Shown here in pieces: positions 4,442 through 52,432 of a DNA stretch of 64,000 nucleotides; within the stretch, counting starts at the first letter, position 1, and each line of letters starts with the position of its first letter. Position numbers and translations under genes: made by a program. The notes beneath the pieces are model-generated. The model worked only from the letters and a program-made list of their open reading frames with translations. It made no database searches and had not been told where the DNA came from. Source of the DNA: Micromonospora inyonensis (GTDB lineage: Bacteria > Actinomycetota > Actinomycetes > Mycobacteriales > Micromonosporaceae); the NCBI RefSeq assembly GCF_900091415.1, contig NZ_FMHU01000002.1, positions 2,852,001 through 2,916,000 of the forward strand. The letters are read 5' to 3'.

Positions 4442-5019
4442 CCGTGCCGACCCACCGGGGACCCAACGGCCGCCGGAACCGGGTGGGTGGCCGGCTGGCC
4501 CCGCTCACGGTGGTCGTCGTGGCAGTGTCCGGGATGGTCGCGGCGTGCGGCGGCGACGTGCCCGTCTCTCCGCTGCCCGTCCAGCCACCGTCCGCGGCGG
4601 CGACCCGCACTCCCACTCCGCCGGTGACGTCCACGCCGCCGGCCTCCCCGCCGCCGGGTACGCCGGTCGTCGTGCCCACGTCCCGCCGCCCCGCGCCGGT
4701 GACGTCGACGTCCGTGCGGACCCCGCCCGCGACCCGGTCGCCGAGCGGATTGCCCGGCAGCTGCCACGGCGCGGTGCGGTACGACCTGGTGCTGGCCGAG
4801 ACCGAGTTGGCGCTGCTCACCTCGCTCTGCTTCGCCACCGGCGGGGTGCTACGGATCATCGGGATCGGGCCGGGCGAGGTGACCGTGGACCGGGAGGACC
4901 TGGTCTCCCGCAGCTACGAGGGTGGGGTGGTGGACGTCCGGTTCGTCCGCCCCGGCACCGTGGTCGTACGGATTCCGCAGGACGGTACGACGTATCCGGT
5001 CACGGTGGTGGTGCGGTAG
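4438..5019 (+). CDS. Putative lipoprotein coupled to the ECF sigma factor
   Basis: A 193-residue protein with a basic N-terminus, a hydrophobic stretch at about residues 21-36 and a lipobox ending VAAC, so it is probably a lipid-anchored exported protein. A Pro/Thr/Ser-rich linker follows (about residues 40-103, repeated PP, TP and ST), typical of cell-wall-spanning spacers. The compact C-terminal domain contains two cysteines (SCHG and SLCF) that could form a disulfide. The ATG lies inside the sigma-factor stop (ATGA overlap). I do not recognise the globular domain. It may sense an envelope signal for the sigma factor; that is inferred only from the coupling. It converges on the kinase gene with 10 bases between stops. 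Confidence 0.82.
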   Translation: MTVPTHRGPNGRRNRVGGRLAPLTVVVVAVSGMVAACGGDVPVSPLPVQPPSAAATRTPTPPVTSTPPASPPPGTPVVVPTSRRPAPVTSTSVRTPPATRSPSGLPGSCHGAVRYDLVLAETELALLTSLCFATGGVLRIIGIGPGEVTVDREDLVSRSYEGGVVDVRFVRPGTVVVRIPQDGTTYPVTVVVR

Positions 5020-5029
5020 CCGGCCGGGC

Positions 5030-6439
5030 CTACCGCACCCGCACCCCGGCGAGCAGCCGGTCGACGAAGTCGGCCGCGCCGCCGTGCGGAGGCACGACCT
5101 GCACGTAGATCAGCCCGGTACGGCCGGGGCCGAGCCCGGCGGCCTCGACCACCACCGGCCGGCCCCGGTCGCAGGTGAACCGGGCCACCACCCAGTCCAC
5201 GCCCGCCTGCCGGGTGCGCCGCAGGGGCGCGGCTACGCAGGCCGCGTGCGGCCGTTCGGCGACGAAGCCGGCGGGGGTGGTCCGCGCGGCGGTGCTGGCG
5301 GAGAGGCCGACGAAGGCCCCCGGCACGGTCGGGTCGACCGCCCACCGGTGCGGGTCGGGTGACATCACCAGGGCGGGTTCGAGGGTGCCGTCGGCACCGT
5401 ACTGGCCCGCCCAGCCGGTGCCGACGGCTCGCCATCCGGGCGGCAGCGCGACGGTGATCGGTCCGTTCGTCCCGGTGCCGGCGTCCCGGCCGGCGGTGGC
5501 GGTGTCCCCGGCCAGGGCCCCGACGAGGGCGAGCACGGCGACGCCGACCCCGGACCACCGCCCCGGCCGCGCCCCGCCCCGGGCCGGGCCGCCCGGGACT
5601 CGACCGGTCGTCCGCGCGTCGACCCGTCCGGGGCCCGGGGCGGAGGTCACGGCGTGCCGTAGGGCCGCGCGGAAGGCTGCGGCGTCGGGGTGGCGGTCGG
5701 CGGGACGGGGTGCGGTGGCCCGGCGCAGTACGTCCGCCACCCGCGCCGGGACGCCCTCCCGGAGCCGGACCGCCCCGGCCGGGTCCGGCCGGTCCCTCGC
5801 TGGACGCGACGGTGGGGCCGTGCCGAGCAGCCGGACGCCGAGGCGACCCAGCCCGTAGACGTCGGCGCGGGTGTCGACGACCGCGAGCGGGTCGTCCTGT
5901 TCCGGGGCCATGTAGCCGGGGGTGCCGGCCCGGGCGGTGAGGCCGGAGGCGGCGGCGAGCGCCTTGGCCAGTCCGAGATCGGCGACCAGCACGCGCTCGC
6001 CGTCGGGGTGGGACCGGAAGAGGATGTTGCCGGGCGTGAGGTCACGGTGCACCACGCCGTTGCGGTGCAGCACGGCGACGCCGGCCGCGATCTCGGCCAG
6101 CAACTCCAGGGCGACGGGCACGGGCAGCGGACCGGCCGCCAGCCGGTCGCGCAGGCTGCCACCGTCGGCCAGGGCCATCACCGAGTACGGCCGCCCGTCG
6201 GGTAGTTCCCCGACCCCGTGGACCCGGACCAGCCGCTCGTCGTCGAGTCGGCGCAGCAGGCGGGCCTCGTCGAGGAACCGTTCCCGGACCCGCAGGTCGT
6301 GGTGCCAGTTCTCGGCCAGCACCTTGATCGCCACCGGGGAGTCGAGCCCCGGGTCGTGGCCCAACCAGACCGTCGCGAACGAGCCCGTGCCGAGCAGCCG
6401 CTCGATCCGGTACGGCCCGATCCTTTCCGGACTGGTCAC
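5030..6439 (-). CDS. Membrane Ser/Thr protein kinase with external domain (PknB-like family)
   Basis: Hanks-type kinase of 469 residues if it starts at the GTG at 6439. Visible motifs: glycine loop LGTGSFATVWLG (about 16-27), catalytic lysine in VAIKVLAE (K39), HRDLTPGN catalytic loop (about 130), DLGLAK in place of DFG, and GTPGYMAPEQ activation segment. A proline/arginine-rich juxtamembrane stretch leads to one membrane segment (WSGVGVAVLALVGALAG, about residue 300), followed by a roughly 150-residue extracytoplasmic domain with cysteines and no PASTA repeats. The upstream in-frame extension (to 7009) runs over the divergent PadR gene and is rejected. The GTG start places the kinase domain directly at the N-terminus. 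It is divergent from padR with 117 bases between. DLG instead of DFG is common in this family. The ligand is unknown. Confidence 0.92.
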   Translation of the reverse strand: MTSPERIGPYRIERLLGTGSFATVWLGHDPGLDSPVAIKVLAENWHHDLRVRERFLDEARLLRRLDDERLVRVHGVGELPDGRPYSVMALADGGSLRDRLAAGPLPVPVALELLAEIAAGVAVLHRNGVVHRDLTPGNILFRSHPDGERVLVADLGLAKALAAASGLTARAGTPGYMAPEQDDPLAVVDTRADVYGLGRLGVRLLGTAPPSRPARDRPDPAGAVRLREGVPARVADVLRRATAPRPADRHPDAAAFRAALRHAVTSAPGPGRVDARTTGRVPGGPARGGARPGRWSGVGVAVLALVGALAGDTATAGRDAGTGTNGPITVALPPGWRAVGTGWAGQYGADGTLEPALVMSPDPHRWAVDPTVPGAFVGLSASTAARTTPAGFVAERPHAACVAAPLRRTRQAGVDWVVARFTCDRGRPVVVEAAGLGPGRTGLIYVQVVPPHGGAADFVDRLLAGVRVR

Positions 6440-26797: not shown

Positions 26798-27823
26798 TCA
26801 GCCGACCGCCGCAGCGAGGTAGACGTCGATCTCGGCGATGAGCCGCCGCTTCTCGGCCTCGGGCAGGAAGGCCGCGGTCACCGCGTCGCGGGCCAGTCCG
26901 GCCACCCCCGCCGCGTCCAGCCCGAGCAGCCGGGCGGCGACGGCGTACTCGTCGTTGAGGGTGGTGCCGAACATCGGCGGGTCGTCGGAGTTGATGGTGA
27001 CCAGCACCCCGGCCTCGACGAGGCGCCCGAGCGGGTGCGCGTCCAGGCTCGCCACCGCCCGGGTCCGCAGGTTGGAAGTGGGGCAGACCTCCAACGCGAT
27101 GCGCCGCTGCGCGAGATGGGCGAGAAGTTCCGGGTCCTGCGCGGCGGAGATGCCGTGCCCGATCCGCTCCGCGCCCAGGTCCCGCAGCGCGTCCCAGACG
27201 GTCTGCGGCCCGGTGGTCTCCCCGGCGTGCGGGGCGGAGCGCAGCCCGGCCGCCCGGGCCTGGTCGAAGTACGGCTTGAACTGCGGCCGGGGCACGCCGA
27301 CCTCCGGGCCGCCCAGACCGAACGAGATCAGCCCGTCCGGACGCTGGTCGAGGGCGATCCGCAGGGTCTCCTCGGCAGCCGGCAGCCCGGCCTCGCCCGG
27401 GATGTCGAAGCACCAGCGCAGCTCGATGCCGAAGTCCGCCTCGGCCCGCTTGCGGGCGTCCTCGATCGCCTCGCAGAAGGCCGGCGCGGGAATGCCCCGC
27501 CGCACGTGCGAGTACGGCGTGATGGTCAACTCCGCGTAGCGGACCTGCTGCCGGGCCAGCTCCCGGGCCACCTCGTGGGTGAGGATCCAGACGTCGGTGT
27601 CGTCCCGGACCAGGTCGACGACGCTGAGATAGACCTCGATGAAGTGGGCGAAGTCGCGAAACTCGAAGTAGGCGGCGAGCGCGTCCGGATCGGCCGGCAC
27701 CGGGCTACGCCCCTCGTGCCGGGCGGCCAGCTCGGCGACGATCCGGGGCGAGGCGGAGCCGACGTGGTGCACGTGCAGCTCCACCTTGGGCAGTCCGGCG
27801 ATGAACGAGGGCAGGTCGGTCAC
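26798..27823 (-). CDS. add: Adenosine deaminase
   Basis: Converts adenosine to inosine in purine salvage. The 341-residue metal-dependent amidohydrolase has HVHHVGSASP (zinc ligands, near residue 15), PHAGETTGPQTVW (catalytic region), AERIGHGISAA (third histidine), the EVCPTSNLRT motif and INSDDPPMFGTTL with the aspartate ligand. The first motif reads HHVGS where HLDGA is more usual, a variation found in adenosine deaminase-like enzymes, so adenine or other substrates remain possible. GTG 27823 overlaps the stop of the upstream methyltransferase gene (GTGA), giving translational coupling. Confidence 0.92.
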   Translation of the reverse strand: MTDLPSFIAGLPKVELHVHHVGSASPRIVAELAARHEGRSPVPADPDALAAYFEFRDFAHFIEVYLSVVDLVRDDTDVWILTHEVARELARQQVRYAELTITPYSHVRRGIPAPAFCEAIEDARKRAEADFGIELRWCFDIPGEAGLPAAEETLRIALDQRPDGLISFGLGGPEVGVPRPQFKPYFDQARAAGLRSAPHAGETTGPQTVWDALRDLGAERIGHGISAAQDPELLAHLAQRRIALEVCPTSNLRTRAVASLDAHPLGRLVEAGVLVTINSDDPPMFGTTLNDEYAVAARLLGLDAAGVAGLARDAVTAAFLPEAEKRRLIAEIDVYLAAAVG

Positions 27824-29568: not shown

Positions 29569-29841
29569 TCAGTCCGGCCAGTGGCCGGTCAGTCGACGGA
29601 CGCCGACCGCCCCACCGCGGTCGACCGCCGCCCGGACCACCGAGAAGATGGCGCCCTGGAGAGCGGCAGCGGCCAGGACCTCGCCCCAGCCGCGATCCTC
29701 GTCGGTGGCGCTGGGCGCCTCGCCGTCCCCGGCGGTCATCTTCCACACCTGCCGGAACAGCACCCCGGCGACGGCACCGGCGGCCAGACCGAGGAACACA
29801 CCCACCGGCTTGTAGGCGGCCCGGTTGATACCCCTGTTCAC
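29569..29841 (-). CDS. DUF4235 small membrane protein
   Basis: A 90-residue protein with the family segment YKPVGVFLGLAAGAVAGVLFRQVWK, an acidic loop with DEDRGWGEVLAAAALQGAIF, and the second helix ending VRAAVDRGG. Two predicted membrane helices. GTG 29841 overlaps the stop of the DUF3618 gene by 4 bases (GTGA). These three genes form one operon, common in high-GC actinobacteria. Role unknown, probably envelope-associated. Confidence 0.88.
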   Translation of the reverse strand: MNRGINRAAYKPVGVFLGLAAGAVAGVLFRQVWKMTAGDGEAPSATDEDRGWGEVLAAAALQGAIFSVVRAAVDRGGAVGVRRLTGHWPD

Positions 29842-40946: not shown

Positions 40947-40984
40947 CCGGCCCCACCGCTGCTTTCCGGCGCCGGTGGGGCCGG
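40947..40984 (-). terminator. Hairpin terminator of the eight-gene heptose operon
   Basis: 12-bp stem (CCGGCCCCACCG and its complement) with a 14-base loop, ending one base before the topoisomerase stop codon at 40985. It closes the minus-strand operon. Confidence 0.75.
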
Positions 40985-41968
40985 TCAGGCCTCCTCCAGC
41001 AGGGCCCGTACCGCCCGCTCGGCCACCGGCCGGGGCGTGTCGGGAGCCACCGGGGCGACCACCCCGTCGTGGTAGAGGTCCACCACCCGGGGATCCACGT
41101 AGGAGGCCCGGGCCACCGTGGGGGTGTTGCCGAGCAGGTCCGCGACGCCCCGCATGACCGCGACGACCGCCCGTCGCCGGGCCGTGGCCGAGCGCTGGAC
41201 GCCCGTCGCGGCCAGGTCGACCGCGGCCAGCACCGTGGCGTGCCAGGTCCGGAAGTCCTTGGCGGTCATCTCCCCGCCGCTGGCCTCGCGCAGGTAGTCG
41301 TTGACCTCGTCGCTGCGCACGTCCCGCCAGGTCGTGCCGTCCCAGTAGCCGAAGAGGCGGTCCGCCGCACGCCGCCGCCGGCGCAGGTTGCGCAGCACCT
41401 GGCACAGTTGCGGATCGTCGATCCGGCGCACCTGGTCGACGCCGCCCTTGGCCGGGAAGGAGAGGACCACGCAGTCGCCCCGGGACCGGGTGTGCTCGGG
41501 ACGCAGCGTGGCCACCCCGAAGGTCGGGTCGTCACCGGCCGCGTACTGGTCGCTGCCGACCCGGAACATGCCCATGTCCAGCAGCCGGGTCACCGTCGCC
41601 AGCACCCGGTCACGGCGCAGCCCCCGGCCGGTCAGATCCCGCTCGACCCGCTCCCGCAGCACCGGCAGCCGGCGGGCCACCTCCAGCACGTGGTCGAACT
41701 TCGCCTCGTCGCGCCGGCGTCGCCACTCCGGGTGGTAGAGGTACTGCCGACGGTTGGCCGCGTCGGTCCCGACGGCCTGGATGTGCCCGTTGGGGTACGG
41801 GCAGATCCACACGTCCCGCCAGGCCGGCGGGATGACCAGTTCCCGCAGCCGGGCCAACTGGTCAGGGTCGCGGACGGTCTCACCGGAGGGGTCCACGAAG
41901 CGCCAGCCCCGTCCCGCCCGTCGGCGTCCGTACCCCGGCCGACCCGGATCGCTACGCCGCAACCGCAC
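40985..41968 (-). CDS. Type IB DNA topoisomerase
   Basis: Eukaryote-like nicking-closing enzyme that relaxes supercoils by a 3'-phosphotyrosyl intermediate. The 327 residues show the N-terminal DNA-binding part (RLRELVIPPAWRDVWICPYP, GHIQAVGTDAANRRQYLYHP), the catalytic core (LLDMGMFRVGSDQY, EMTAKDFRTWHATVLAA) and the active-site tyrosine in ARASYVDPRV near residue 291, close to the C-terminus. Bacterial topo IB is scattered in actinobacteria and proteobacteria. GTG 41968; the coding start lies inside the stop region of the upstream glycosyltransferase (17-base overlap). Membership in the heptose operon is odd. Confidence 0.92.
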   Translation of the reverse strand: MRLRRSDPGRPGYGRRRAGRGWRFVDPSGETVRDPDQLARLRELVIPPAWRDVWICPYPNGHIQAVGTDAANRRQYLYHPEWRRRRDEAKFDHVLEVARRLPVLRERVERDLTGRGLRRDRVLATVTRLLDMGMFRVGSDQYAAGDDPTFGVATLRPEHTRSRGDCVVLSFPAKGGVDQVRRIDDPQLCQVLRNLRRRRRAADRLFGYWDGTTWRDVRSDEVNDYLREASGGEMTAKDFRTWHATVLAAVDLAATGVQRSATARRRAVVAVMRGVADLLGNTPTVARASYVDPRVVDLYHDGVVAPVAPDTPRPVAERAVRALLEEA

Positions 41969-42905
41969 CGTCGTCCCACACCGCCCGTTCCGCCTCGTCC
42001 GTCTCGGCCAGCACCTGGTCGACGGAGAGCACCGCCATCGTCGGGTGCATCCCTACCCCGTCCCACCGCAGCTCACTACCGGTCCCGGCCCAGAGCACCC
42101 GGTGCCGGGGACGGTCCGGCGGCGGCCCCCAACGGGTCGGCGGGACCGGGCCGAACAGCACCACCGACGGGGTGCCGTAGGCGGTCGCCAGGTGGGCGAC
42201 CCCGGTGTCGCCGCTGACCACCAGCCGGGCGTGGGCCACCAGGGCGGCCAGGTCGGTCAGGCCGGTCCGCCCGGCCAGCACCGCCGTGGGCGGCAACCCG
42301 GCCCGGCGCGCCACCTGCTCGGCGACCACCCGCTCGGTCGGCGAGCCGGTCACCACCACCCGGTGTCCGGTCCGGGCCAGGTGCCGGGCGACGGCGGCGA
42401 ACCGGGCGGGCGACCAGCGCTTCGCCGGCACCTTCGTGCCCGGATGCAGCACGGTCGCCCCGACCGGGACCCGGTCCGGCGCGGGTCGGGCCAGGGCGAG
42501 GTCGCCCGGTTCGGCCGGCAGGCCGTACCAGTCGACCAGGCGGCACCAGCGCCGTACCTCGTGCTCCGCGTCGTCCCACTCCGGGCCGTCCGGGTGCCCG
42601 GCCGACGGACAGCGGAACGCGAACAGCCGACCGGGGTCGGCGGCGAGCAGCAGCGCGTGCGACTGCGGCCCGCGTCCGTGCAGGTTGACCGCGATCCCGG
42701 GGGACGGCCCCGGCCGGTCCGGCGGGGCCAGCCCGGTCACCGGCAGCACCCGGTCGACACCGCCGACCAGGTCGACCAGCGGGGTCAGCCAGTCCGGGGC
42801 GGCCAGTACCAGTTCCCGGTCCGGGAACCCGGCACGCAGGGCGCGCAGCGCCGGCACGGCGGTGGCGAGGTCACCGACGCCGAGCGCGCGCAGCACCAGG
42901 ATCAC
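41952..42905 (-). CDS. GT9-family glycosyltransferase (heptosyltransferase-like)
   Basis: A 317-residue GT-B enzyme related to ADP-heptose LPS heptosyltransferases WaaC/WaaF. N-terminal ILVLRALGVGDLATAVPALR is the family start, with a donor-binding C-terminal half containing VGATVLHPGTKVPAKRWSPA and VVSGDTGVAHLATAYGTPSVVLFG. In a lineage without LPS the acceptor is unknown, perhaps a cell-wall polymer. GTG 42905 overlaps the SDR stop (GTGA). It is the second of two GT9 domains in this operon; the other is fused to a GmhB-like phosphatase. Confidence 0.9.
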   Translation of the reverse strand: MILVLRALGVGDLATAVPALRALRAGFPDRELVLAAPDWLTPLVDLVGGVDRVLPVTGLAPPDRPGPSPGIAVNLHGRGPQSHALLLAADPGRLFAFRCPSAGHPDGPEWDDAEHEVRRWCRLVDWYGLPAEPGDLALARPAPDRVPVGATVLHPGTKVPAKRWSPARFAAVARHLARTGHRVVVTGSPTERVVAEQVARRAGLPPTAVLAGRTGLTDLAALVAHARLVVSGDTGVAHLATAYGTPSVVLFGPVPPTRWGPPPDRPRHRVLWAGTGSELRWDGVGMHPTMAVLSVDQVLAETDEAERAVWDDGAVAA

Positions 42906-43603
42906 GGGTACGAGGACTCCTGTTCGGCGCAGACGACCAGTTCCCGCACCGCACAGCCGGCCGGCTGGGAGAGCGCGAACAGCACGGCGGCGGCGGTGTC
43001 GGCGGGCTCGTTGAGGACGGCGTCCGGGCCCGGTCGGTACCGCTCGTCCCGGTCGTCGAAGAACGGGGTGCGCATGCCGCCGGGGATCAGCAGGGTGACC
43101 CCGACCGCACCGGCGAGTTCCGCGGCGAGGGCGCGGGTGAAGCCGACCACCCCGAACTTCGCCGCGCAGTACGCGGTGGCGTCGCTGACCGCCTTGACGC
43201 CGAGCGTCGAGGCGACCGTGACCACGGTGCCCCGCGAGCTGACCAGGTAGGGCAGCGCGGCACGGACCACCGCGGCGGTGGCGAGCAGGTCGACGGCGAG
43301 GATCCGGTCCCAGGTCTCCCCCGGCACGTCCGCCAGCCTGCCCGGCACGTCGATCCCGGCGGCGGTGACCACCGCGTCCAGGCCGCCGGAGCGTTCGGCG
43401 AGTTCCCGGGTGGCGGCCTCGGCGGCCCGGGTGTCGGCCAGGTCGCACTCGATCCAGGGCACCCCGTCGCCGGGCGGTTTCCGGTCCAGCACCACCGGTC
43501 GGCCCCCCGCGCGGGCGACGGCGGTGACGACGGCCGCACCGAGACCGCTCGCCCCGCCGGTGATCAGGACGGTCGATCCGCTGGTGAGGGAACCGCTGCT
43601 CAT
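42902..43603 (-). CDS. Short-chain dehydrogenase/reductase (classical SDR)
   Basis: A 233-residue NAD(P)-dependent oxidoreductase. The cofactor loop TGGASGLG and the catalytic Tyr-Lys pair in YCAAKFGVVG are intact, with the serine in VASTLGV; DLADTRAA fixes the adenine-ribose side. It is a classical SDR and lacks the extended C-terminal domain of the sugar epimerase HldD, so it is not the expected ADP-heptose epimerase. Position between HldE and GT9 suggests oxidation or reduction of the heptose or a linked sugar. ATG 43603 has GGAGCGCG upstream. Confidence 0.9.
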   Translation of the reverse strand: MSSGSLTSGSTVLITGGASGLGAAVVTAVARAGGRPVVLDRKPPGDGVPWIECDLADTRAAEAATRELAERSGGLDAVVTAAGIDVPGRLADVPGETWDRILAVDLLATAAVVRAALPYLVSSRGTVVTVASTLGVKAVSDATAYCAAKFGVVGFTRALAAELAGAVGVTLLIPGGMRTPFFDDRDERYRPGPDAVLNEPADTAAAVLFALSQPAGCAVRELVVCAEQESSYP

Positions 43604-45120
43604 CGCGCTCCTTCCGTGGACTGACGCTCGACGGCCCCGGGGCCGCGCGTCAGGGTGGCCGGGCGTCGCCGGTCGGTGCCGTCCGGGCCGGAGCGGAGCC
43701 GGTCGCCCCCGGTCGCGCGGGCCGCCCCTATCAGGTCGGTGGTCGAGCGCCCGTGCAGGTACGGCACGACCACCGTGTGCCCGCCCCAGCGGCGCAGCAG
43801 ATCCGCCTCGGGCAGCACCGGTTCGTCCCCCGCGCCGGTGGCGTAGTCGCCGCCCTTGACCCAGACGTCCGGACGGAGCCAGGACAGCACCGCGTGCGGC
43901 GTGGGCTCGTCGAAGACCACCACCGCGTCGACGCAGCCGAGTGCGGCCAGCAGCCGGCCGCGGTCGCCCTGGGACACCACCGGCCGGTCCGGCCCCTTCA
44001 GGCCGGTGACGCTGGTGTCGGAGTTCAGGCAGACCACGAGGCAGTCGCCGAGGCGCCGGGCGGCCTGGAGGGTGGCCACGTGTCCGGCGTGCAGCAGGTC
44101 GAAACAGCCACCGGTGGCGACCACGGTGCCACCGGCCGCCCGGACCGCGGCGACCACCGCACCGGCTGCCGCCGTACCGATCCGCTCCCCGCCGACGCTG
44201 GACGCCGCCGGCAGCGCGGCACCGACCGGGACGGGCGGCACCCCGGCCACTCCCCCGGCGGCGACGTACGCCGACGCCTCGGCGACCGCGAGTTCCACCG
44301 CCTCGGAGACCAGCGCGCCCCGGGCGAGCGCGACGCTGGCGGTCGCCGCGAACCGGTCCCCCGCCCCGCAGGTGTCCCCCTCCGCGCCACCGGGAGCGGG
44401 CACCACCAGCGGGGTCGCCCCGGCGTGGCAGAGCAGCGCGCCGTCGGCGCCGAGGGTCACCGCGACCGCCCCGGCCCGCCAGCGGTGCCGCAGTCCCTGC
44501 GCGCCCCGGGCCGCGGTGGCCAGGCGCGACGGCCCCGGCGGGGCCTCGGCCAGCTCGCGGACCTCCGCCTCGTTCGGCGTGGCCAGGTGCACCCCGGGAA
44601 CGGCCGCCGGGCCGCGCGGATGCGGATCCCAGACCACCGGCGCGGTGGTGGCGGCCAGCGCGGCGCGCAGCGCCGGTTGCCGGGCCACGCCCCGGCCGTA
44701 GTCGCTGACCAGCACGGCGGACGCGTTGGCGATCAGCCGCAGCACCGCCTCACCCGGCTCCCCCGGGACGCCCGGCACGCCGCCCCGGTCGTGCCGCAGC
44801 AGCACCCGTCCCCGCGCCCGCAGCCGGATCTTCTCCGGGGTCGCGCCGACCAGCGGCAACGCGTACACCTGCACCCCGGCGGCGGTCAGCAGGCAGCTGA
44901 GGCGGGCCCCGGCGGCGTCGTCAGCCAACGCCGTGACCAGGGCGACCTCGGCTCCCTGCGCGGCGGCGAAGAGCGCCGCGAGCCCCGCGCCGCCGGGGCG
45001 CTCGACATGCGTGGTCTCGTCCAGCACCGGTCCCGGGGAGTCGGGGCAGAGCCGGTTCACCACCCCCTCCACGTCCCGGTCGAGCAGGACGTCACCGACC
45101 ACCACCACCGGTCCGGTCAC
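43600..45120 (-). CDS. hldE: HldE-like bifunctional heptose kinase/nucleotidyltransferase
   Basis: Two enzymes in one chain of 506 residues. The N-terminal PfkB/ribokinase domain (about 1-310) shows the sugar-binding ERPGGAGLA loop, LRLRARGRVLLRHDRGG, LATPNEAEVRELA and the anion-hole GDTCGAGDRFAA with the catalytic aspartate. The C-terminal cytidylyltransferase-fold domain (about 330-470) shows GCFDLLHAGHVATLQ (H-x-G-H), DYATG and the loop VKGGDYATGAGDEPVLPE. Family role: phosphorylate D-glycero-D-manno-heptose 7-phosphate at O-1 and, after dephosphorylation at O-7, add a nucleotide (ADP in Gram-negatives). It ends in a 35-residue disordered tail. GTG 45120; overlaps its neighbours by 4 bases on both sides. 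Confidence 0.92.
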   Translation of the reverse strand: MTGPVVVVGDVLLDRDVEGVVNRLCPDSPGPVLDETTHVERPGGAGLAALFAAAQGAEVALVTALADDAAGARLSCLLTAAGVQVYALPLVGATPEKIRLRARGRVLLRHDRGGVPGVPGEPGEAVLRLIANASAVLVSDYGRGVARQPALRAALAATTAPVVWDPHPRGPAAVPGVHLATPNEAEVRELAEAPPGPSRLATAARGAQGLRHRWRAGAVAVTLGADGALLCHAGATPLVVPAPGGAEGDTCGAGDRFAATASVALARGALVSEAVELAVAEASAYVAAGGVAGVPPVPVGAALPAASSVGGERIGTAAAGAVVAAVRAAGGTVVATGGCFDLLHAGHVATLQAARRLGDCLVVCLNSDTSVTGLKGPDRPVVSQGDRGRLLAALGCVDAVVVFDEPTPHAVLSWLRPDVWVKGGDYATGAGDEPVLPEADLLRRWGGHTVVVPYLHGRSTTDLIGAARATGGDRLRSGPDGTDRRRPATLTRGPGAVERQSTEGAR

Positions 45121-45818
45121 GCCGTACCCCCTCGTCCCCCGGCCCCCGGTGCGGCACCGTCGTCGAGCACGACCTCCACCCCGGTACGCGGGGCGGCGCG
45201 GGTCGCCGCGACCGGCTGGGGTTCCCCGCCGGTGACCGCGCCCACCGGCAGCGGCAGCGCCCGGTCGACGTGCTCGCAGAGCACGTGCACCGAGACCAGG
45301 TGCAGCTCCTGCACGATCTGGCTGTCCGGGGCGGCGACGGCCAGCGCGTCGTGGCAGGCGTCGACGAGGGGGTTGGGCGCCGCTCCGGTCATCGCCCAGC
45401 AGCGCAGCCCGGCCTCCCGTCCGGCGCGGGCGGCAGCGAGCAGGTTGCCGCTGGTGCCGCTGGTGGACAGCAGCAGGAGGATGTCGTCGGGCCGCCCGTG
45501 GGCGTGGACCTGGCGGGCGAAGACCTGCTCGTAGCCGTAGTCGTTGCCGATCGCGGTGAGCGCGCTGGTCTCGGCGTGCAGCGCGATGGCGGAGAGCGGC
45601 TGCCGGTCGTGGCGCAGCTTGCCGACGAGTTCGGCGGTGAGGTGCTGGGCCTCCGCGGCGCTGCCCCCGTTGCCGGCGACCAGCAGCCGCCCACCGGCGG
45701 TCAGGGTGCGGGCCAGGACGTCCCCCCAGTCGGCGAGCCGGGCCGCCGAGCGGCGGTACTCCCGCAGGGCCACGGCCAGATCGGCCAGGTGCGCCTCCAG
45801 CACCGTGGACGCCGCCAT
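45117..45818 (-). CDS. gmhA: GmhA-like sedoheptulose 7-phosphate isomerase (SIS domain)
   Basis: A 233-residue SIS-fold isomerase that would turn sedoheptulose 7-phosphate into D-glycero-D-manno-heptose 7-phosphate, the first heptose-specific step. The phosphate loop RLLVAGNGGSAAEAQHLTAEL is a strong GmhA signature, followed by ILLLLSTSGTSGNLLAAARAG, and helices TGAAPNPLVDACHDALAV. The C-terminal 30 residues (TRAAPRTGVEVVLDDGAAPG) are extra and disordered. The catalytic Glu/His are in the AEAQHLTAE and HLVSVHVLCEHVD segments. ATG 45818 shares one base with the GT4 stop (TGATG). Confidence 0.92.
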   Translation of the reverse strand: MAASTVLEAHLADLAVALREYRRSAARLADWGDVLARTLTAGGRLLVAGNGGSAAEAQHLTAELVGKLRHDRQPLSAIALHAETSALTAIGNDYGYEQVFARQVHAHGRPDDILLLLSTSGTSGNLLAAARAGREAGLRCWAMTGAAPNPLVDACHDALAVAAPDSQIVQELHLVSVHVLCEHVDRALPLPVGAVTGGEPQPVAATRAAPRTGVEVVLDDGAAPGAGGRGGTA

Positions 45819-47035
45819 CAGGCGACCACCCGGGTCGGTCGACGCGCCGCCGTCACCGCCGCGTAGACCTCGGCCACCTGCGCGGCGGTACGGGTCCAGG
45901 AGTACCGCTCCCGGGCCCGGTCCAGGGCGGCGGTGGCGTACGCTAACCGCCGTTCCCGGTCGGCCAGCAGCCGGTGGATCGCCGCGCCGAGCGCGTCCGG
46001 GTCGCGGGGCGGCACCAGGTCGCCGGTGAGCCCGTCGACCACGGTGTCCACGATCCCGCCGACGGCGGTGCCGACCACCGGCACCCCACAGGCCATGCCC
46101 TCCAGCGGAGTGAGGCCGAACGGCTCGTACCAGGGCGCGGCGACGAGCACGTCGGCGGAGCGGTACCAGCGGCCCATCTCCTCACGGGGGACAGCGCCGA
46201 CGAGACGGACCCGGTCGGCGACCCCGCAGGCCGCGGCGAGCGCCCACAGCCGGCGGGCCTGCGGGTCGTCGTCGATCGCGCCGGCCGGCGGGCCGCCCAC
46301 CACGACGCACTCGGCATCCGGTACGGCGCGCATCGCCCGGATCACCTCCCCGAAGCCCTTCCGCTCGACCAGTCGCCCCACGGTGAGCACCCGGGCCAGC
46401 CCGTCGACCCGCTCGGCGACCGGGCCCACCGGCGTGAAGGCGCGCAGGTTGACCCCGGAGGGGACCACCGTCATCCGGGAGCGGGGCACGCCCATCGCGA
46501 CCAGCTCGCGGACCTCGTCGCGGCTCTGCGCGACGACCCGGTCCACGGCCACGCCCAGGATCCGTTCGTAGTCCACCCGCCCGGCCGGGCTGGTGTCCTG
46601 GATCCCCTGGTGGCGTCGCTTCACCGTGCCGAGCGCGTGGTAGGTCTGCACCACCGGAACCCCGGTGCGCCGGCCGGCGTTCAGCGCGGCCAGTCCGCTC
46701 ATCCAGAAGTGCGCGTGCGCCACCTCGGGCGTCCACTCCCCGGAGCCCCACTGCTGCGCCAACCAGGTGGCGAACGGCTCCATGTAGGGCAGCAGGGTGT
46801 CCTTGCCGACCGGCTCGGGCGGGCCGGCGGGGACGTGCACCACGTCGTAGCCGTCCGCGGTCCGCACCGACACCGGTAGCGCGACGGAGTCCCGGCGGGT
46901 GTAGACGCGCACGTCATGGCCGGCGGCGGCGAGCGCGGCGGCCAACTCCGCGACGTGGGTGTTCTGCCCACCGGCGTCCTCCCCGCCGAGCACGGCGAGC
47001 GGACTGGCGTGCTCCGAGATCATCGCGATGCGCAT
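45818..47035 (-). CDS. GT4-family glycosyltransferase
   Basis: A 405-residue GT-B retaining glycosyltransferase. Its start RIAMISEHASPLAVLGGEDA with AGGQNTHVAELAAALAAAGH is like sucrose-phosphate-synthase/MshA-type enzymes. Acceptor region EVAHAHFWMSGLAALNAGRR; donor side VVPSGVNLRAFTP, VLTVGRLVERKGF and APWYEPFGLTPLEGMACGVPV with the E-x7-E motif. Donor sugar unknown; in context possibly a nucleotide-heptose or GDP/UDP-hexose. ATG 47035 gives the canonical start and overlaps the previous gene by 16 bases. It precedes GmhA by one base of overlap. Confidence 0.9.
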   Translation of the reverse strand: MRIAMISEHASPLAVLGGEDAGGQNTHVAELAAALAAAGHDVRVYTRRDSVALPVSVRTADGYDVVHVPAGPPEPVGKDTLLPYMEPFATWLAQQWGSGEWTPEVAHAHFWMSGLAALNAGRRTGVPVVQTYHALGTVKRRHQGIQDTSPAGRVDYERILGVAVDRVVAQSRDEVRELVAMGVPRSRMTVVPSGVNLRAFTPVGPVAERVDGLARVLTVGRLVERKGFGEVIRAMRAVPDAECVVVGGPPAGAIDDDPQARRLWALAAACGVADRVRLVGAVPREEMGRWYRSADVLVAAPWYEPFGLTPLEGMACGVPVVGTAVGGIVDTVVDGLTGDLVPPRDPDALGAAIHRLLADRERRLAYATAALDRARERYSWTRTAAQVAEVYAAVTAARRPTRVVA

Positions 47036-47994
47036 GCTTCCTCCTCCAGCAACCGGTCCCAGTCGGCGAGGAATCGCTCCAGGCCGTACCGGGCTCCGGC
47101 CGCCGCGCGGGCCTCGGCGCCCACCCGACGGGCGGTCACGGGGTCGGCCACGAACCGTTGGGCGGCCTCCAGCAGGGTGTCGATCCGGGTGGAGAGCACG
47201 CCCGCGTCGGGCGGTACGGCCACCACCGCCTCGGTGGTGGCCAGGGCGACCACCGGCATGCCGATCGCCATCGCCTCGACCAGGCTCAGCCCGAGCGAGG
47301 TCCACCGGCACAGGTGCAGGTACGCCCGGCGTCGTGCGAGTTCGGCGTGCATCCGGTCCTGCGGCACGTCGTCGTGGCCGGTCACCCGGTCCGGCGGCAG
47401 GCCCAGCCGGTCGGCCAGCCCGGCCACCCCCATGCCGAAGACGTCCAGCGGGGCGATCTCGGCGAACCGGGGCAGCAGGTCGGTGCCGGTGACCCGCCAG
47501 CGCCGCACCGGCTCGTTGACCACCACGGCCAACCGGTCCAGCTCGCCGGTGTACGCCGCGCGGGGCGGCACCACGCCGTGCTCGACGACGGTGGTGCGGG
47601 TGCCGCCGGTGTCCCAGAACAGGTCGTTGAAGTGCGTGACGTGGGCGACCAGCAGGTCGTCCCGGTCGGCCATCGGGTGCCGGGTGTTCGGCACGTCGCC
47701 CTTGGGGGTGTTGTGCTCGACGTAGACGGCGGGGACGTCCCGGCCGACCCGGCGGCCCAGCCACTCGCAGGCCAGGTCGAACTCCTCGGGCCGTTGGAGC
47801 ACGACCACGTCGACCTCGGCCCGGCGCAGCGCCGCGGGTTCCACCTCGACCGCGCTGTCCGGCCAGGGATAGGTGCGGGCCCGGCCGCGCCCGTACGGGC
47901 CCCGGTCCGGGGTGACCGGCACCAGGTAGCGGTGCTTGCCGTGGACGAACGACGTGGTCCAGGAACCGTGCACGTGCCAGAGCAGGACGTTCAC
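47020..47994 (-). CDS. Glycosyltransferase (GT-B type, probable GT4-like)
   Basis: A 324-residue protein beginning VNVLLWHVHGSWTTSFVHGK with VHGKHRYLVPVTPDRGPYGR. The second half has CRWTSLGLSLVEAMAIGMPV, the E-x7-E-like donor motif of GT4 enzymes, and RAAAGARYGLERFLADWD near the end. The N-terminal half is distinctive (VYVEHNTPKGDVPNTRHPMA), a pattern I recall from glycosyltransferases beside heptose genes in actinobacteria but cannot name. GTG 47994 overlaps the phosphatase-GT9 fusion stop by 4 bases. Confidence 0.86.
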   Translation of the reverse strand: MNVLLWHVHGSWTTSFVHGKHRYLVPVTPDRGPYGRGRARTYPWPDSAVEVEPAALRRAEVDVVVLQRPEEFDLACEWLGRRVGRDVPAVYVEHNTPKGDVPNTRHPMADRDDLLVAHVTHFNDLFWDTGGTRTTVVEHGVVPPRAAYTGELDRLAVVVNEPVRRWRVTGTDLLPRFAEIAPLDVFGMGVAGLADRLGLPPDRVTGHDDVPQDRMHAELARRRAYLHLCRWTSLGLSLVEAMAIGMPVVALATTEAVVAVPPDAGVLSTRIDTLLEAAQRFVADPVTARRVGAEARAAAGARYGLERFLADWDRLLEEEACASR

Positions 47995-49703
47995 CGGCCA
48001 CCTCCCCCGGAGCCGACGCCGGCACCCGCACCGCCGGCCACGCCGCCCGCGCGGTTGCCGCCCGCGCGGTTGCCGGCGGTGACGCCGAGCAGGCGTACCG
48101 CGTTGACCACCTCGGCCGGGTCGACGCCGGCCAGGCAGGGGTGACCGGGCACCGGGCACCGCGCGGCGCGGCTGTCCCGGCAGGGCGCGGTGGCGTCGCC
48201 GAGACGGACGGTGGGCACCCGGTAGGGCCCCCACTGCCCGAACGGCACGGTCGGCGCGAACAGGCTCACCACCGGTACGCCGAGCGCGGCGGCGAGGTGC
48301 GCGGGACCGGTGTTGCCGACCACCACGGCACCGGCGGCGGCGATCACGGCGGCGAGGTCGGCCAGGCGCGTCCGGCCGCCGAGGTCCACGCCACCGGCGG
48401 CGGCCACCCGGGCGGTCAGCCCGGTCTGGTCCGGCCCCCCGGTGACCACCACGCGGTGGCCGGCGGCGGTCAGCGCGGCGACCATGTCGGCGTGCACCCC
48501 GGGCGGGCAGGCCCGGGCGGGTACCGAGGCACCGGGGTGCACCACCACGTAGCCGGGCGGCCCGGGTGGTGGTGGCAGCGCCTCCGGACGCAGCCGCAGG
48601 ACCGGTTCGTCCCCCGGGGGCAGGGCGAAGCCGGCCGCGGCGGCCAGGGAAAGGGCCCGTTCCGGCTCCGGTACCCCCGCCGGCACCCGGTGCCGGACGT
48701 CCAGCAGCGAGCCTGGGTAGTCCTCGCTGACCGCGCTGATCCGCCATACCCCGGCCATCCGCAGCAGCAGGGCCAACGGCAGCGGCGACTGGTGGAAGGA
48801 GGTGAAGACGACCGCCTCGTCCGCGCCCACGCCGACGAGGCGGGCCAGCAGCGCGTCCATCCGTTCCCGGTCCACGGGACCGGGGTCCGGGTCGATCCAC
48901 GGCAACGGCCACTCGACGACCTCGTCCACGCCGGGCAGCAGGTCGGCGGCGGCCCGACCCCGGGGTCCGCAGAGCAGCACCACCCGGCGCGCTCCCGCCG
49001 CCACCGCCCGGATCGCCGGACCGGTGACCAGCACGTCGCCGGCCGAGTCGGTCCGGGCCACCAGCACCGTGCCGGCCCGCCGGGGCGCGGCGGGCACCAC
49101 CGCGGCCCGCCGGCGCAGGATCTCCGTCACCGCGGCCGGCAGGTCCCGCGCCACCGACGGCGCGGCGGCCACCTCCTCCGCCCGGGTGACCGGGGTCGGC
49201 ACCAGCACCCCGGTCGCCCCGGCGGCCAGGGCGGCGGCCATGTCGCGGCCGATGTCACCCACCACCACGCACCGCCCCGGGGACGTGTCGAGCTGTCGCG
49301 CCGCCGCCCGGACGAGACCCGGCGCGGGCTTGCGACAGCCACAGCCGGCACCGTCGTCGTGCGGGCACACCTGCCAGGTGTCGAACGGGCCGAGCAGTTC
49401 CTCCACCCGGGCGTGCACCCGCCGCATGTCGGCCTCGGTGAACAGGCCCCGGGCCAGCCCCGACTGGTTGGTCACCACGCCCAGGCGCAGCCCGACCGCG
49501 CGCAGCCGGTCCAGCGCCGCCCGCGCGCCCGGGACCGGGCGGACCTTGTCCGGGTCGCCGTTGTACGGCACGTCCTCGATCAGGGTCCCGTCCCGGTCGA
49601 ACAGGACGGCGTCGTACAGTGCCGGGTGCCCGCCGGGCAGCGGGTCGGAACCGGCGTTTCCCCCGGTTGACCTGCGCTGATACCGATCGTGGCCGCCTCG
49701 CAC
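47991..49703 (-). CDS. GmhB-like heptose bisphosphatase fused to a GT9 glycosyltransferase
   Basis: A 570-residue fusion. Residues about 30-190 are a HAD-IIIA phosphatase: DRDGTL (36-41, nucleophile Asp36), VVTNQSGLARG, the zinc loop with C113, H115, C121 and C123 (CPHDDGAGCGCRKPAPG) and VVVGDIGRDMAAALAAG. This matches GmhB, which removes the 7-phosphate from heptose 1,7-bisphosphate. Residues about 205-530 are a GT9 domain (VLVARTDSAGDVLVTGPAIR, YVVVHPGASVPARACPP, VVVGNTGPAHLAAALGVPVV). The C-terminus is Gly/Ala-rich. GTG 49703 is the first usable in-frame start; the segment before DRDGTL has no ATG. It opens the operon. Confidence 0.9.
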   Translation of the reverse strand: MRGGHDRYQRRSTGGNAGSDPLPGGHPALYDAVLFDRDGTLIEDVPYNGDPDKVRPVPGARAALDRLRAVGLRLGVVTNQSGLARGLFTEADMRRVHARVEELLGPFDTWQVCPHDDGAGCGCRKPAPGLVRAAARQLDTSPGRCVVVGDIGRDMAAALAAGATGVLVPTPVTRAEEVAAAPSVARDLPAAVTEILRRRAAVVPAAPRRAGTVLVARTDSAGDVLVTGPAIRAVAAGARRVVLLCGPRGRAAADLLPGVDEVVEWPLPWIDPDPGPVDRERMDALLARLVGVGADEAVVFTSFHQSPLPLALLLRMAGVWRISAVSEDYPGSLLDVRHRVPAGVPEPERALSLAAAAGFALPPGDEPVLRLRPEALPPPPGPPGYVVVHPGASVPARACPPGVHADMVAALTAAGHRVVVTGGPDQTGLTARVAAAGGVDLGGRTRLADLAAVIAAAGAVVVGNTGPAHLAAALGVPVVSLFAPTVPFGQWGPYRVPTVRLGDATAPCRDSRAARCPVPGHPCLAGVDPAEVVNAVRLLGVTAGNRAGGNRAGGVAGGAGAGVGSGGGGR

Positions 49704-49849
49704 GGCGGGCGGGTTCCCGGCCGCCGGGGGCGTAAACCTGGCTCCGGGGCGTACGCGTCGGCCGCGGCGCGACCGTCCCGTCGTCCCGCGCCGGCCCGGC
49801 CCGGCGTCCGCCCCCACCCAAGCCCGCCCTTACCCGGCGCCCCGGAGAA
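49704..49849. other. Divergent intergenic region of the heptose operon and SRPBCC gene
   Basis: The 189 bases (49704-49892) separating the two divergent starts should hold both promoters. The part up to 49849 shows no clear motif; the rest contains a perfect palindrome (49850-49863). Confidence 0.4.
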
Positions 49850-49863
49850 GCTAACCGGTTAGC
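49850..49863. promoter_or_regulatory. 14-bp perfect palindrome in the divergent promoter region
   Basis: GCTAACCGGTTAGC is its own reverse complement, 29 bases before the SRPBCC start at 49893 and 146 bases from the heptose operon start. Position and symmetry fit a repressor site for one or both transcripts. The regulator is not identified. Confidence 0.4.
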
Positions 49864-49892: not shown

Positions 49893-50339
49893 GTGGCGAT
49901 TGTGGAGAAAGTGATCGGGGCACCCCCGGAGCAGGTCTTCGACGTGCTCGCCGACGGGTGGACGTACAGCGACTGGGTGGTCGGCACGACGCACATGCGG
50001 GACGTCGACGACGGCTGGCCGGCCGTCGGCACCCGGCTGCACCACCGGGCGGGGCCGTGGCCGTTCTCCCTCACCGACACCTCCACCGTGCTGGTCTGCG
50101 AACCGCCACGGCGTCTGGTCATCCTGGCCGGGCTCTGGCCGGCCGGCGAGGCGACCGTGGTCTTCGCCCTCGAGCCGGTCGGCCCGGACGCCACCCGGGT
50201 GCGGCTCGCCGAGGACTTCACCGCCGGCCCGCTGCGCTGGGTCCGCAACAAGGTCAACGATCTGGTGCTCAAGCAGCGCAACAAGGAGACGCTCAACCGG
50301 CTGGCGGACATCGCCACCCGACAGAAGGGCGACCGATGA
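49893..50339 (+). CDS. SRPBCC-fold protein (polyketide cyclase/dehydrase-like)
   Basis: A 148-residue START/SRPBCC-like protein. The start VEKVIGAPPEQVFDVLADGWTYSDW (split: VEKVIGAPPEQVFDVLADG) is typical, with a hydrophobic ligand pocket, and the helix end RWVRNKVNDLVLKQRNKETL. Such proteins bind lipids or aromatic metabolites. Coupled by ATGA to the SDR, so they likely act on the same small molecule or lipid. GTG 49893. Confidence 0.88.
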   Translation: MAIVEKVIGAPPEQVFDVLADGWTYSDWVVGTTHMRDVDDGWPAVGTRLHHRAGPWPFSLTDTSTVLVCEPPRRLVILAGLWPAGEATVVFALEPVGPDATRVRLAEDFTAGPLRWVRNKVNDLVLKQRNKETLNRLADIATRQKGDR

Positions 50340-51337: not shown

Positions 51338-51490
51338 GCCGCTGGTGACGGCCGGGGCTACGGTGCGCGGTGGCGCTCCGGGGCGGCCGTGGCGAAGCGC
51401 CCGAAGGCCCATCGGGGAGCCCTGAGCGCGGGACGCGGTCGGATGGCTACCCTTTCAGGGACACTTGCCGGCAAACTGAGGATGCTCGTC

Positions 51491-52432
51491 ATGATCGAAC
51501 CCGTACAGTTGCCCTCGCCGTGGCGGGACGCGCGCCTGACGGTCGTGGTGCCGACCTACAACGAGGCGGGGAATCTCCCGGTGCTGGTGGAGCGGCTTCT
51601 CGCCCTTCCGCTGCCCGGGCTGCGGGTGCTCGTCGCCGACGACAACTCCCCCGACGGCACCGGTGAGGTCGCCGACAAGCTCGCCATCGAACACCCCGGC
51701 CGGATCGAGGTCGTGCACCGCGCGGGCAAGGAGGGGCTCGGCCGGGCGTACGTGGACGGCATGACCCGGGCGCTGGACGGCGGCGCCGACTACGTCGCCC
51801 AGATGGACGCCGACCTGTCGCACCCGGCGGAGGCGCTGCCCGGCATGCTCGGCGCGCTGCTCTCCACCGGAGCCGGGGTGGTGATCGGGTCCCGGTACGT
51901 GCCCGGCGGCGAGCTGGACGAGGCGTGGCCGCTCTACCGTCGCGCACTCAGCGGGTGGGCCAACCTCTACGTGCACACCCTGCTGCGGGTCCGGATCCGC
52001 GACCTGACCGCCGGCTTCAAGATCTGGCGGGCCGAGGCGCTGCGCGACATCGGCCTCGACCGGGTGCAGTCCAACGGCTACAGCTTCCAGGTCGAGATGC
52101 ACTACCTGGCGACGAAGCTCGGACACACCATCCTGGAGGTGCCGATCCGCTTCGAGGAGCGGCGCGACGGCGTGTCGAAGATGACCACCGCCACCAAGAT
52201 CGAGAGCGCGCTGATGCCGTTCAAGCTCCGTAGCCGACACCGGGACATCGGCAGTACGACTCCCCCGGCGCTGGAGGCGGCACCGGTCGAGGTGGTGGCG
52301 CCGCGTAGGCCGGAGCAGGCGGACGACGCCGGCGACCCGACGGCCGCGCCCGCACCGGCCGGGACCGACGACCAGCCGCCGGCCGCCCTCGGGACGACCG
52401 ACACGGACGACGAGCCGCAGGCGGCGCGGTAG
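51491..52432 (+). CDS. Polyprenol monophosphomannose synthase (Ppm1/DPM1-like, GT2)
   Basis: Transfers mannose from GDP-mannose to a polyprenol phosphate, making the lipid donor for lipomannan, lipoarabinomannan or protein mannosylation. GT-A motifs: VVVPTYNEAGNLPVLVERL, VLVADDNSPDGTGEVAD, MDADLSHPAEALPGM (D-x-D), DLTAGFKIWR, and the FEERRDGVSKMTT lysine/arginine cluster. There are no membrane helices, so only the catalytic half of mycobacterial Ppm1 is present. A Pro/Ala/Asp-rich tail of about 65 residues ends the protein. ATG 51491 is used (GAGG nine bases upstream); ATG 51482 would add three residues. Confidence 0.92.
   Translation: MIEPVQLPSPWRDARLTVVVPTYNEAGNLPVLVERLLALPLPGLRVLVADDNSPDGTGEVADKLAIEHPGRIEVVHRAGKEGLGRAYVDGMTRALDGGADYVAQMDADLSHPAEALPGMLGALLSTGAGVVIGSRYVPGGELDEAWPLYRRALSGWANLYVHTLLRVRIRDLTAGFKIWRAEALRDIGLDRVQSNGYSFQVEMHYLATKLGHTILEVPIRFEERRDGVSKMTTATKIESALMPFKLRSRHRDIGSTTPPALEAAPVEVVAPRRPEQADDAGDPTAAPAPAGTDDQPPAALGTTDTDDEPQAAR

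Follow-up and report, generated by a model that had tools for sequence, protein, structure and literature searches.

A 64,000-nt stretch of the genome of the soil actinomycete Micromonospora inyonensis (contig NZ_FMHU01000002.1, positions 2,852,001–2,916,000; hereafter the window) carries at positions 40985–49703 an operon encoding homologs of the nucleotide-heptose enzymes GmhB, GmhA and HldE together with a set of glycosyltransferases. The operon is real and conserved, and belongs, as a derived variant, to a cluster type that is known but uncharacterised. We consider it likely that it represents a Micromonospora derivative of the actinobacterial cwg-type heptose-glycan cluster, as represented by the cwg operon of Streptomyces coelicolor. 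In this explanation, (i) two GT9 domains and two GT-B enzymes would attach heptose, along with other sugars, to a glycoconjugate of the envelope or cell, by analogy with Streptomyces cwg; (ii) a SigB/SigF-like promoter just before the GTG start codon would drive the operon, perhaps producing a leaderless message; and (iii) overlapping start codons would couple translation along the operon. Relative to the Streptomyces form, the epimerase, carbamoyltransferase and GT2 genes are missing from the operon. The features in transcription order, all on the minus strand, are:

49713..49737, minus strand: promoter-like element GTTTAC-N13-GGGAAC, 9 nt 5′ of the GTG (upstream alignment); resembles SigB/SigF-family promoters
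47991..49703, minus strand: GmhB-type HAD phosphatase (N-terminal) fused to a GT9 domain (Pfam, NCBIfam); cwgD–cwgE equivalent
47020..47994, minus strand: glycosyltransferase Gx (Pfam); cwgF equivalent
45818..47035, minus strand: GT4 glycosyltransferase (Pfam; best NCBIfam model MshA, below cut-off); cwgG equivalent
45117..45818, minus strand: GmhA, sedoheptulose-7-phosphate isomerase-like (Pfam, NCBIfam, residues); cwgH equivalent
43600..45120, minus strand: HldE, heptose-7-phosphate kinase and heptose-1-phosphate nucleotidyltransferase (Pfam, NCBIfam, residues); cwgI equivalent
43738..43761, minus strand: STTR5 motif of HldE, YLHGRSTT, residues 454–461, with Arg458 (translation, alignment of relatives)
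42902..43603, minus strand: classical short-chain dehydrogenase/reductase (SDR) (Pfam, residues)
41952..42905, minus strand: second GT9 glycosyltransferase (Pfam, NCBIfam, residues); cwgJ equivalent
40985..41968, minus strand: bacterial DNA topoisomerase IB, last gene of the overlapping run and probably a passenger (Pfam)
40947..40984, minus strand: hairpin 3′ of the last gene, a possible transcription end (folding)

The initial annotation, made from the sequence of the window, had reported a full GmhA, HldE and GmhB set, and homologs of all three are indeed present with their catalytic residues kept, though they score below the equivalog cut-offs. In alignments of 37 to 40 relatives per gene, the catalytic and metal-binding residues are kept in nearly all sequences. 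The H, E, Q and H of GmhA, which we take to be Zn ligands, are found in the window and in 39/39 relatives. The Asp of the HldE kinase GAGD motif and both His of the nucleotidyltransferase HxGH motif, presumably functional residues of the two domains, are kept in 40/40, and the GmhB DxD, Cys/His and RK residues in 39/39 relatives; of these we take DxD to be the catalytic-type motif and the Cys/His positions to be Zn residues. GmhB is of the beta type rather than the alpha type, scoring 120.5 bits against the beta model PRK08942 and 35.9 bits against the alpha model. Position 5 of the HldE STTR5 motif is Arg (Arg458, in GRSTT), as it is in 31/40 relatives, the others having His (4) or Tyr (5); position 1 is Tyr in the window, rather than the Phe or Leu of (F/L)XXGXSTT. 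According to PMC11573728, Arg at position 5 marks enzymes able to produce CDP- and UDP-heptose as well, without being strictly required. Because HldE carries this Arg, the motif suggests a wider nucleotide use, in which the nucleotide need not be ADP alone.

The cluster is widespread. HldE is matched at E ≤ 0.001 in 126/150 family genomes and 125/396 phylum genomes, many of these matches being short or weak and of kinase or nucleotidyltransferase type; at least 340 bits is reached in 30/396 phylum genomes, the window's own included (a hand count, with three candidates scored per genome). HldE identity is at least 79% in 15/16 same-genus genomes. We collected 40 regions of ~20 kb around strong HldE matches (39 genomes, with genome G134 represented twice), so that the counts are conditional on HldE, and counted a family as present when it scored at least 60 bits at any place in the region. 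GmhB, the first GT9, GT4 and GmhA are each present in 39 regions, Gx and the second GT9 in 38, the SDR in 37 (directly after HldE in 33, by hand count), the carbamoyltransferase and a cwgC-like GT2 in 29 each, and a cwgA-like epimerase in 7. A check of cluster conservation across actinobacterial genomes, set beforehand, finds all seven core genes (GmhB through the second GT9, leaving the SDR aside) in 36/40 of these regions, and in 26/40 they form an uninterrupted same-strand order, with the SDR allowed. Departures consist of regions lacking Gx (L055), GmhA (L058) or the second GT9 (L063), of one with GmhA and HldE only (L089), of a weak and inverted second GT9 (L072), of one displaced gene each in L060 and L085, and of a rearranged region (L092); Gx and GT4 lie upstream, before the carbamoyltransferase, in L069, L071, L086, L087, L090 and L091.

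Among 80 named loci, the best of 392 relatives and mostly from Micromonosporaceae, 64 have the uninterrupted order with the SDR, counting two with a split GT9 match; of the remainder, 12 start or end within ~320 bases of the locus end and four depart from the order (L163, L164, L169 and L172). Micromonospora, Salinispora, Actinoplanes and one Jiangellales record share the gene set, which is also found, with departures, in Streptoalloteichus (second GT9 not found) and in one member each of the Nocardioidaceae (Gx displaced), Acidimicrobiales (no SDR) and Thermoleophilia (rearranged). A Gx subfamily reaches beyond the phylum, with matches to the Gx of L172 that include sequences named Bryobacterales and Chloroflexota. 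The gene set of the operon stands as first described, but it is no peculiarity of the strain, since it recurs in many relatives and agrees with the S. coelicolor cwg operon described in 2002. We also note that genome G134 holds two paralogous heptose clusters, L080 with a carbamoyltransferase and the window-type L081 without one.

Eight minus-strand open reading frames (ORFs) make up the window operon, GmhB and the first GT9 forming a single ORF, and each of the seven junctions overlaps. The overlaps in transcription order are 4, 16, 1, 4, 4, 4 and 17 bases, exactly as first annotated, with the second (Gx/GT4) being 4 bases instead of 16 if the GT4 start is the ATG at 47023. Overlapping genes are also found elsewhere in the window, for example at 27820–27823 and 29838–29841, and the overlaps alone are therefore ordinary. 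In the relatives (120 loci), we scored the presence, rather than the use, of a start codon that overlaps or abuts the stop of the preceding gene, which is found for GT9–Gx in 89/101, Gx–GT4 in 103/110, GT4–GmhA in 102/106, GmhA–HldE in 104/112, HldE–SDR in 80/111 and SDR–GT9 in 94/104 junctions. The overlapping starts probably couple translation. The run does overlap into the topoisomerase gene, as the initial annotation had it, but the topoisomerase does not hold up as part of the cluster: it lies near the cluster in just 11/40 HldE-selected regions, on the opposite strand in two of them. We thus reject it as a functional operon component and regard it as probably a passenger neighbor. The hairpin reported after the operon is present at 40947–40984, with −38.3 kcal/mol for a 61-nt stretch, a z of only −1.9 relative to shuffles (11/200 fold equally well) and no T run 3′ of it.

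The two GT9 domains, two further transferases and the SDR of the earlier description are borne out by Pfam and NCBIfam. Gx is a distant group-1 glycosyltransferase by Pfam, with a WHVHGS segment that is invariant across 17 aligned sequences and a predicted model with a mean local confidence (pLDDT) of 90.9; from Pfam and secondary structure we read it as GT-B. The GT4 enzyme scores 232 bits against the MshA model TIGR03449, below its cut-off of 462.5, and was rejected as MshA, the mycothiol enzyme, on this basis; in the MshA inositol-phosphate site Lys78 is kept and Tyr110 is replaced by Phe, residue roles that we take from MshA. The solved chains nearest to GT4 are 6kih and 3c4q, presumably the sucrose-phosphate synthase Tll1590 and MshA, respectively, whose acceptors we take to be phosphorylated small molecules. 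The nearest solved chain to the second GT9 is heptosyltransferase II. The SDR has an intact Ser-Tyr-Lys set, and no SDR match is found in two Streptomyces-type clusters, L066 and L067.

The region upstream of the GTG was compared among 59 loci, the window and 58 others picked for having both GmhB and the topoisomerase. No sigma-E-like site (AAC-N-CGTC type) is found in the ~345 nt 5′ of the window GTG, and such sites occur in 3/59 upstream regions versus 211/1180 background windows, a rate below background; as a control, the search matched in L066 and did not in L067. A sigma-E promoter for the window operon was accordingly rejected. An alignment of 16 upstream regions instead shows invariant GTTTA and GGGAACCCGCC. 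GTTTAC-N13-GGGAA occurs in 45 regions and its N14 form in L114, amounting to 46/46 regions without an upstream carbamoyltransferase, window included, and the motif with either spacing is found in 0/13 regions with one. A looser form, used for the background, is present in 34/2360 background windows, and a related motif lies 5′ of the carbamoyltransferase in 7/54 loci versus 26/2400 in the background. The Bacillus subtilis SigB consensus is given in PMC8346170 as GTTTAA-N12-14-GGG(A/T)A(A/T), and S. coelicolor SigF, SigH and SigN promoters are described there as keeping GTTT. The window element, GTTTAC-N13-GGGAAC, matches this B. subtilis consensus at 10/12 positions and in spacing, and transcription probably starts at a SigB/SigF-like promoter just 5′ of the GTG. 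Because the GTG lies 9 nt after GGGAAC and the gaps that shortly follow it in the alignment are 3 or 6 bases long, a leaderless message is plausible.

Genes of the SigB/F/G sigma family lie near the cluster in some loci (among them L090, L060 and L071), in some cases with anti-sigma-like genes; tblastn finds them in 9/120 loci, one at 29% identity, and the two that were scanned, in L090 (14603–15753) and L060 (13944–15240), pass the SigB/SigF/SigG model cut-off. A perfect palindrome, GCTAACCGGTTAGC, is located at 49850–49863, between the operon and a divergent ORF at 49893. Half-sites like it are further apart in several aligned loci, as judged by eye; the palindrome itself occurs in the window only among the 59 upstream regions and was rejected as the operon operator. 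Soon after the GTG, ATCAGCGCAGGTCA at 49668–49681 is strongly conserved at the DNA level in the 16 aligned loci and may have a regulatory role besides coding. Further out, a GT2 gene at 51482–52432, ~1.8 kb from the operon start, has weak matches to polyprenol-phosphate sugar synthases, and a gene judged by eye to be the same adjoins the heptose cluster in 5/45 loci.

Several observations, given here and in the discussion of the acceptor below, weigh against the cwg-type explanation. None of the operon's enzymes reaches an NCBIfam equivalog cut-off: GmhA scores 157 bits versus 209, HldE 258 versus 521, its nucleotidyltransferase domain 167 versus 181.5, GmhB its 120.5 versus 178 and the GT9 domains at most 79 versus 134.6. 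In the xTGxxH motif, the GmhB-fused GT9 has Asn where the second GT9 has Asp (39/39). Our confidence is also slightly lowered because the strict gene order holds in just 26 of the 40 regions. The promoter loci, 46 in all, belong to a single bacterial family, so that they represent conservation and not independent trials. The scores would also fit enzymes that had drifted to another sugar phosphate and made no heptose, an alternative we consider quite improbable. Position 61 of GmhA (presumably in Burkholderia numbering) is Glu in the window and variable in its 39 relatives (25 Glu, 8 Gln and 2 each of Asp, His and Leu), and the closest solved chains are a putative HAD hydrolase for GmhB and a putative cytidylyltransferase for the nucleotidyltransferase, all of which would fit such drift. 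The nearest chains to GmhA are phosphoheptose isomerases, however; the kinase part of HldE is closest to a heptose 7-phosphate kinase, and the next chains for GmhB are D,D-heptose 1,7-bisphosphate phosphatases. Moreover, GmhA, GmhB and HldE occur together in 38/40 regions (L058 lacks GmhA and L089 lacks GmhB), with metal- and nucleotide-binding residues kept.

A further point against the cwg-type explanation concerns the acceptor. No flippase, polymerase, ligase or lipid-phosphate transferase family is found by Pfam among the operon proteins, so that a wall polymer is no more than a candidate, and a literature search found no heptose measurement in these organisms. A hydropathy scan of the eight operon proteins and 11/12 Streptomyces-type proteins gives a maximum of 1.93 versus 2.51 for a transporter control. 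This is weak evidence on solubility, because the fusion (1.81), Gx (1.93) and the SDR (1.79) come near or above commonly used cut-offs, at sites resembling buried fold core. Since the operon lacks lipid-phosphate transferase, flippase and ligase families and GT4 is nearest to enzymes that we take to act on phosphorylated small molecules, an acceptor that is soluble or a lipid head is no less plausible than a wall polymer. It is also conceivable, although unlikely, that the operon feeds a small secreted metabolite and not a structural glycan, much as nucleoside diphosphate (NDP)-heptose, described in a published commentary as a septacidin precursor, feeds septacidin in Streptomyces fimbriatus. 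The soluble appearance of the operon proteins would suit such a product, and the pairing of GmhA and HldE alone in genome G500 (L089, with a Streptomyces-type genus label) indicates that other uses exist. On the other hand, no aminotransferase, amide-forming or nucleoside family is found by Pfam among the eight proteins, the core stays together in 36 of the 40 regions, unlike a strain-specific metabolite cluster, and the Streptomyces relative is reported to respond to vancomycin, partly via sigma-E (PMC6767563).

The rest of the genome bears on both the sugar and the completeness of the pathway. No HldD-like epimerase was noted in the operon at first, and none passes the cut-off in the genome: all 10 HldD matches fall below it, the best at 110.8 bits versus 274.6, and a hidden HldD elsewhere was rejected on this basis. 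Because no HldD exceeds the cut-off, the product is probably D,D-heptose, as predicted from sequence. GmhA has one match, the operon's own, and GT9 has four, two of them within the operon. The closest other HldE, at 97% identity, is named Micromonospora sagamiensis. The window genome has one full-length cwg-type HldE and therefore lacks a second, carbamoyltransferase-bearing cluster. Equivalents of cwgA and cwgB elsewhere were likewise rejected: the sole carbamoyltransferase match to PF02543 is surrounded, as is an HldD-like SDR close by, by genes resembling those for non-ribosomal peptide synthetases, as read from translations without a family scan. These genes, around the PF02543 match and the epimerase-like SDR, occupy C2:1284000-1303000 (L174).

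An unlinked second HldE (HldE2, 702 aa) lies at C1:1993764-1998134 (L010:9765-14135), its kinase match in two stretches, with a GT2, an MFS transporter and a convergent GT9 as neighbors on contig C1. Every one of the 121 sampled Micromonospora genomes, counting the window's own, has an HldE2 match (E 1.1e-134 or better); HldE2 has no SIS domain match and was rejected as a three-domain synthetase. The genes examined at the HldE2 locus include no GmhA or GmhB family, and the sole GmhA match of the genome is in the operon, so one could view the operon as a mere precursor supplier for the HldE2/GT2/GT9 locus. This is very improbable: the operon itself encodes a nucleotidyltransferase as well as four glycosyltransferase domains, and genome G065 keeps HldE2 at 81% without a cwg-type HldE and without a clear GmhA (21.9 bits).

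Heptose is usually taught as a lipopolysaccharide (LPS) sugar, and the proposal that it has a non-LPS destination here is supported. A conserved heptose-transferase cluster in many Actinomycetota, with a carbamoyltransferase in 29/40 regions, points to an uncharacterised glycoconjugate in medically and industrially weighty organisms, and NDP-heptoses are described as ALPK1 agonists in vertebrates (PMC11573728). With its seven core activities, its SDR and a single candidate promoter, the window operon offers a small version for finding the cwg product. A bolder proposal, which we hold to be possible but rather doubtful, is that the core is an ancient actinobacterial unit for a D,D-heptose glycoconjugate that is assembled in the cytosol, carries carbamoyl groups in most lineages and is built on a small phosphorylated polyol or lipid head instead of a wall polymer. 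In Micromonospora, the unit would have been trimmed and would have exchanged envelope-stress control for general-stress or developmental (SigB/SigF-type) control, and its donor might be CDP- or UDP-heptose.

How does the window operon compare with known systems? It has the same three enzyme families and catalytic residues as the NDP-D,D-heptose pathway, but differs in its scores below the curated cut-offs, in the lack of an HldD above cut-off and in having no LPS acceptor expected. Septacidin of S. fimbriatus is likewise a Gram-positive use of NDP-heptose; the window operon has no septacidin-type tailoring families (by Pfam only), and its core is common to many genera. The distribution of actinobacterial NDP-heptose synthetases is at least partly in print already, reportedly in a study by Tang et al. 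of 2022. A carbamoyltransferase-bearing Micromonospora sister cluster (for example L080 and L135) has the same core with an SDR, but adds a NodU/CmcH carbamoyltransferase (in L080 also a GT2) and has no topoisomerase match, and no GTTT-GGGxA motif is found 5′ of the carbamoyltransferase in L080 or L135.

The closest known system is cwg itself, a 12-gene operon of S. coelicolor (SCO6179-6190) for a predicted cell wall glycan, which is induced by vancomycin, partly dependent on sigma-E and adjoins a putative deacetylase, SCO6178-6177 (PMC6767563, citing Hong et al. 2002). Its product is called predicted or putative in print, and our search of open-licence papers on heptose and cwg found no structure of the cwg product and no description of this cluster in Micromonospora. 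For the S. coelicolor side of the comparison, we relied on the gene products in print and on a single published promoter. A partial table in PMC5839063 gives cwgB, C, E, G and J as transferases, cwgD as a dehydratase, cwgH as a phosphoheptose isomerase and cwgI as a bifunctional synthase/transferase, and PMC5882110 describes cwgE as a putative heptosyl transferase. The likeness is otherwise seen via L066 and L067, which carry genes for an epimerase/dehydratase, a NodU/CmcH-type carbamoyltransferase, GT2, GmhB (in L066 at 4700-5194 by tblastn), GT9, Gx, GT4, GmhA, HldE, GT9, GT2 and GT2, with the core as genes 4–10 of the twelve and a divergent polysaccharide deacetylase match adjoining. This gene order is in agreement with both the table of PMC5839063 and the 12-gene operon of PMC6767563. 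L067 encodes an HldE with 98% identity to one named Streptomyces thermodiastaticus, and L066 has the same genus label. L066 also contains CAACCCGGTCCCCGTTTTCGTC, a near copy of the cwg promoter, printed as CGCAACCTGGTCCCCGTTTTCGT-CGTCTT (PMC6767563).

The window operon differs from cwg in the fusion of GmhB with GT9, in the added SDR and topoisomerase IB, in lacking the cwgA epimerase, the cwgB carbamoyltransferase and the cwgC, cwgK and cwgL GT2 genes, and in that no sigma-E-like promoter was found. The seven genes equivalent to cwgD–J nevertheless follow in the same order, GmhB-GT9-Gx-GT4-GmhA-HldE-GT9, with only the SDR interrupting. Based on gene order, published products and promoter similarity, the cluster shared by the relatives, of which the window operon is a trimmed version, is apparently the same as the Streptomyces cwg operon.

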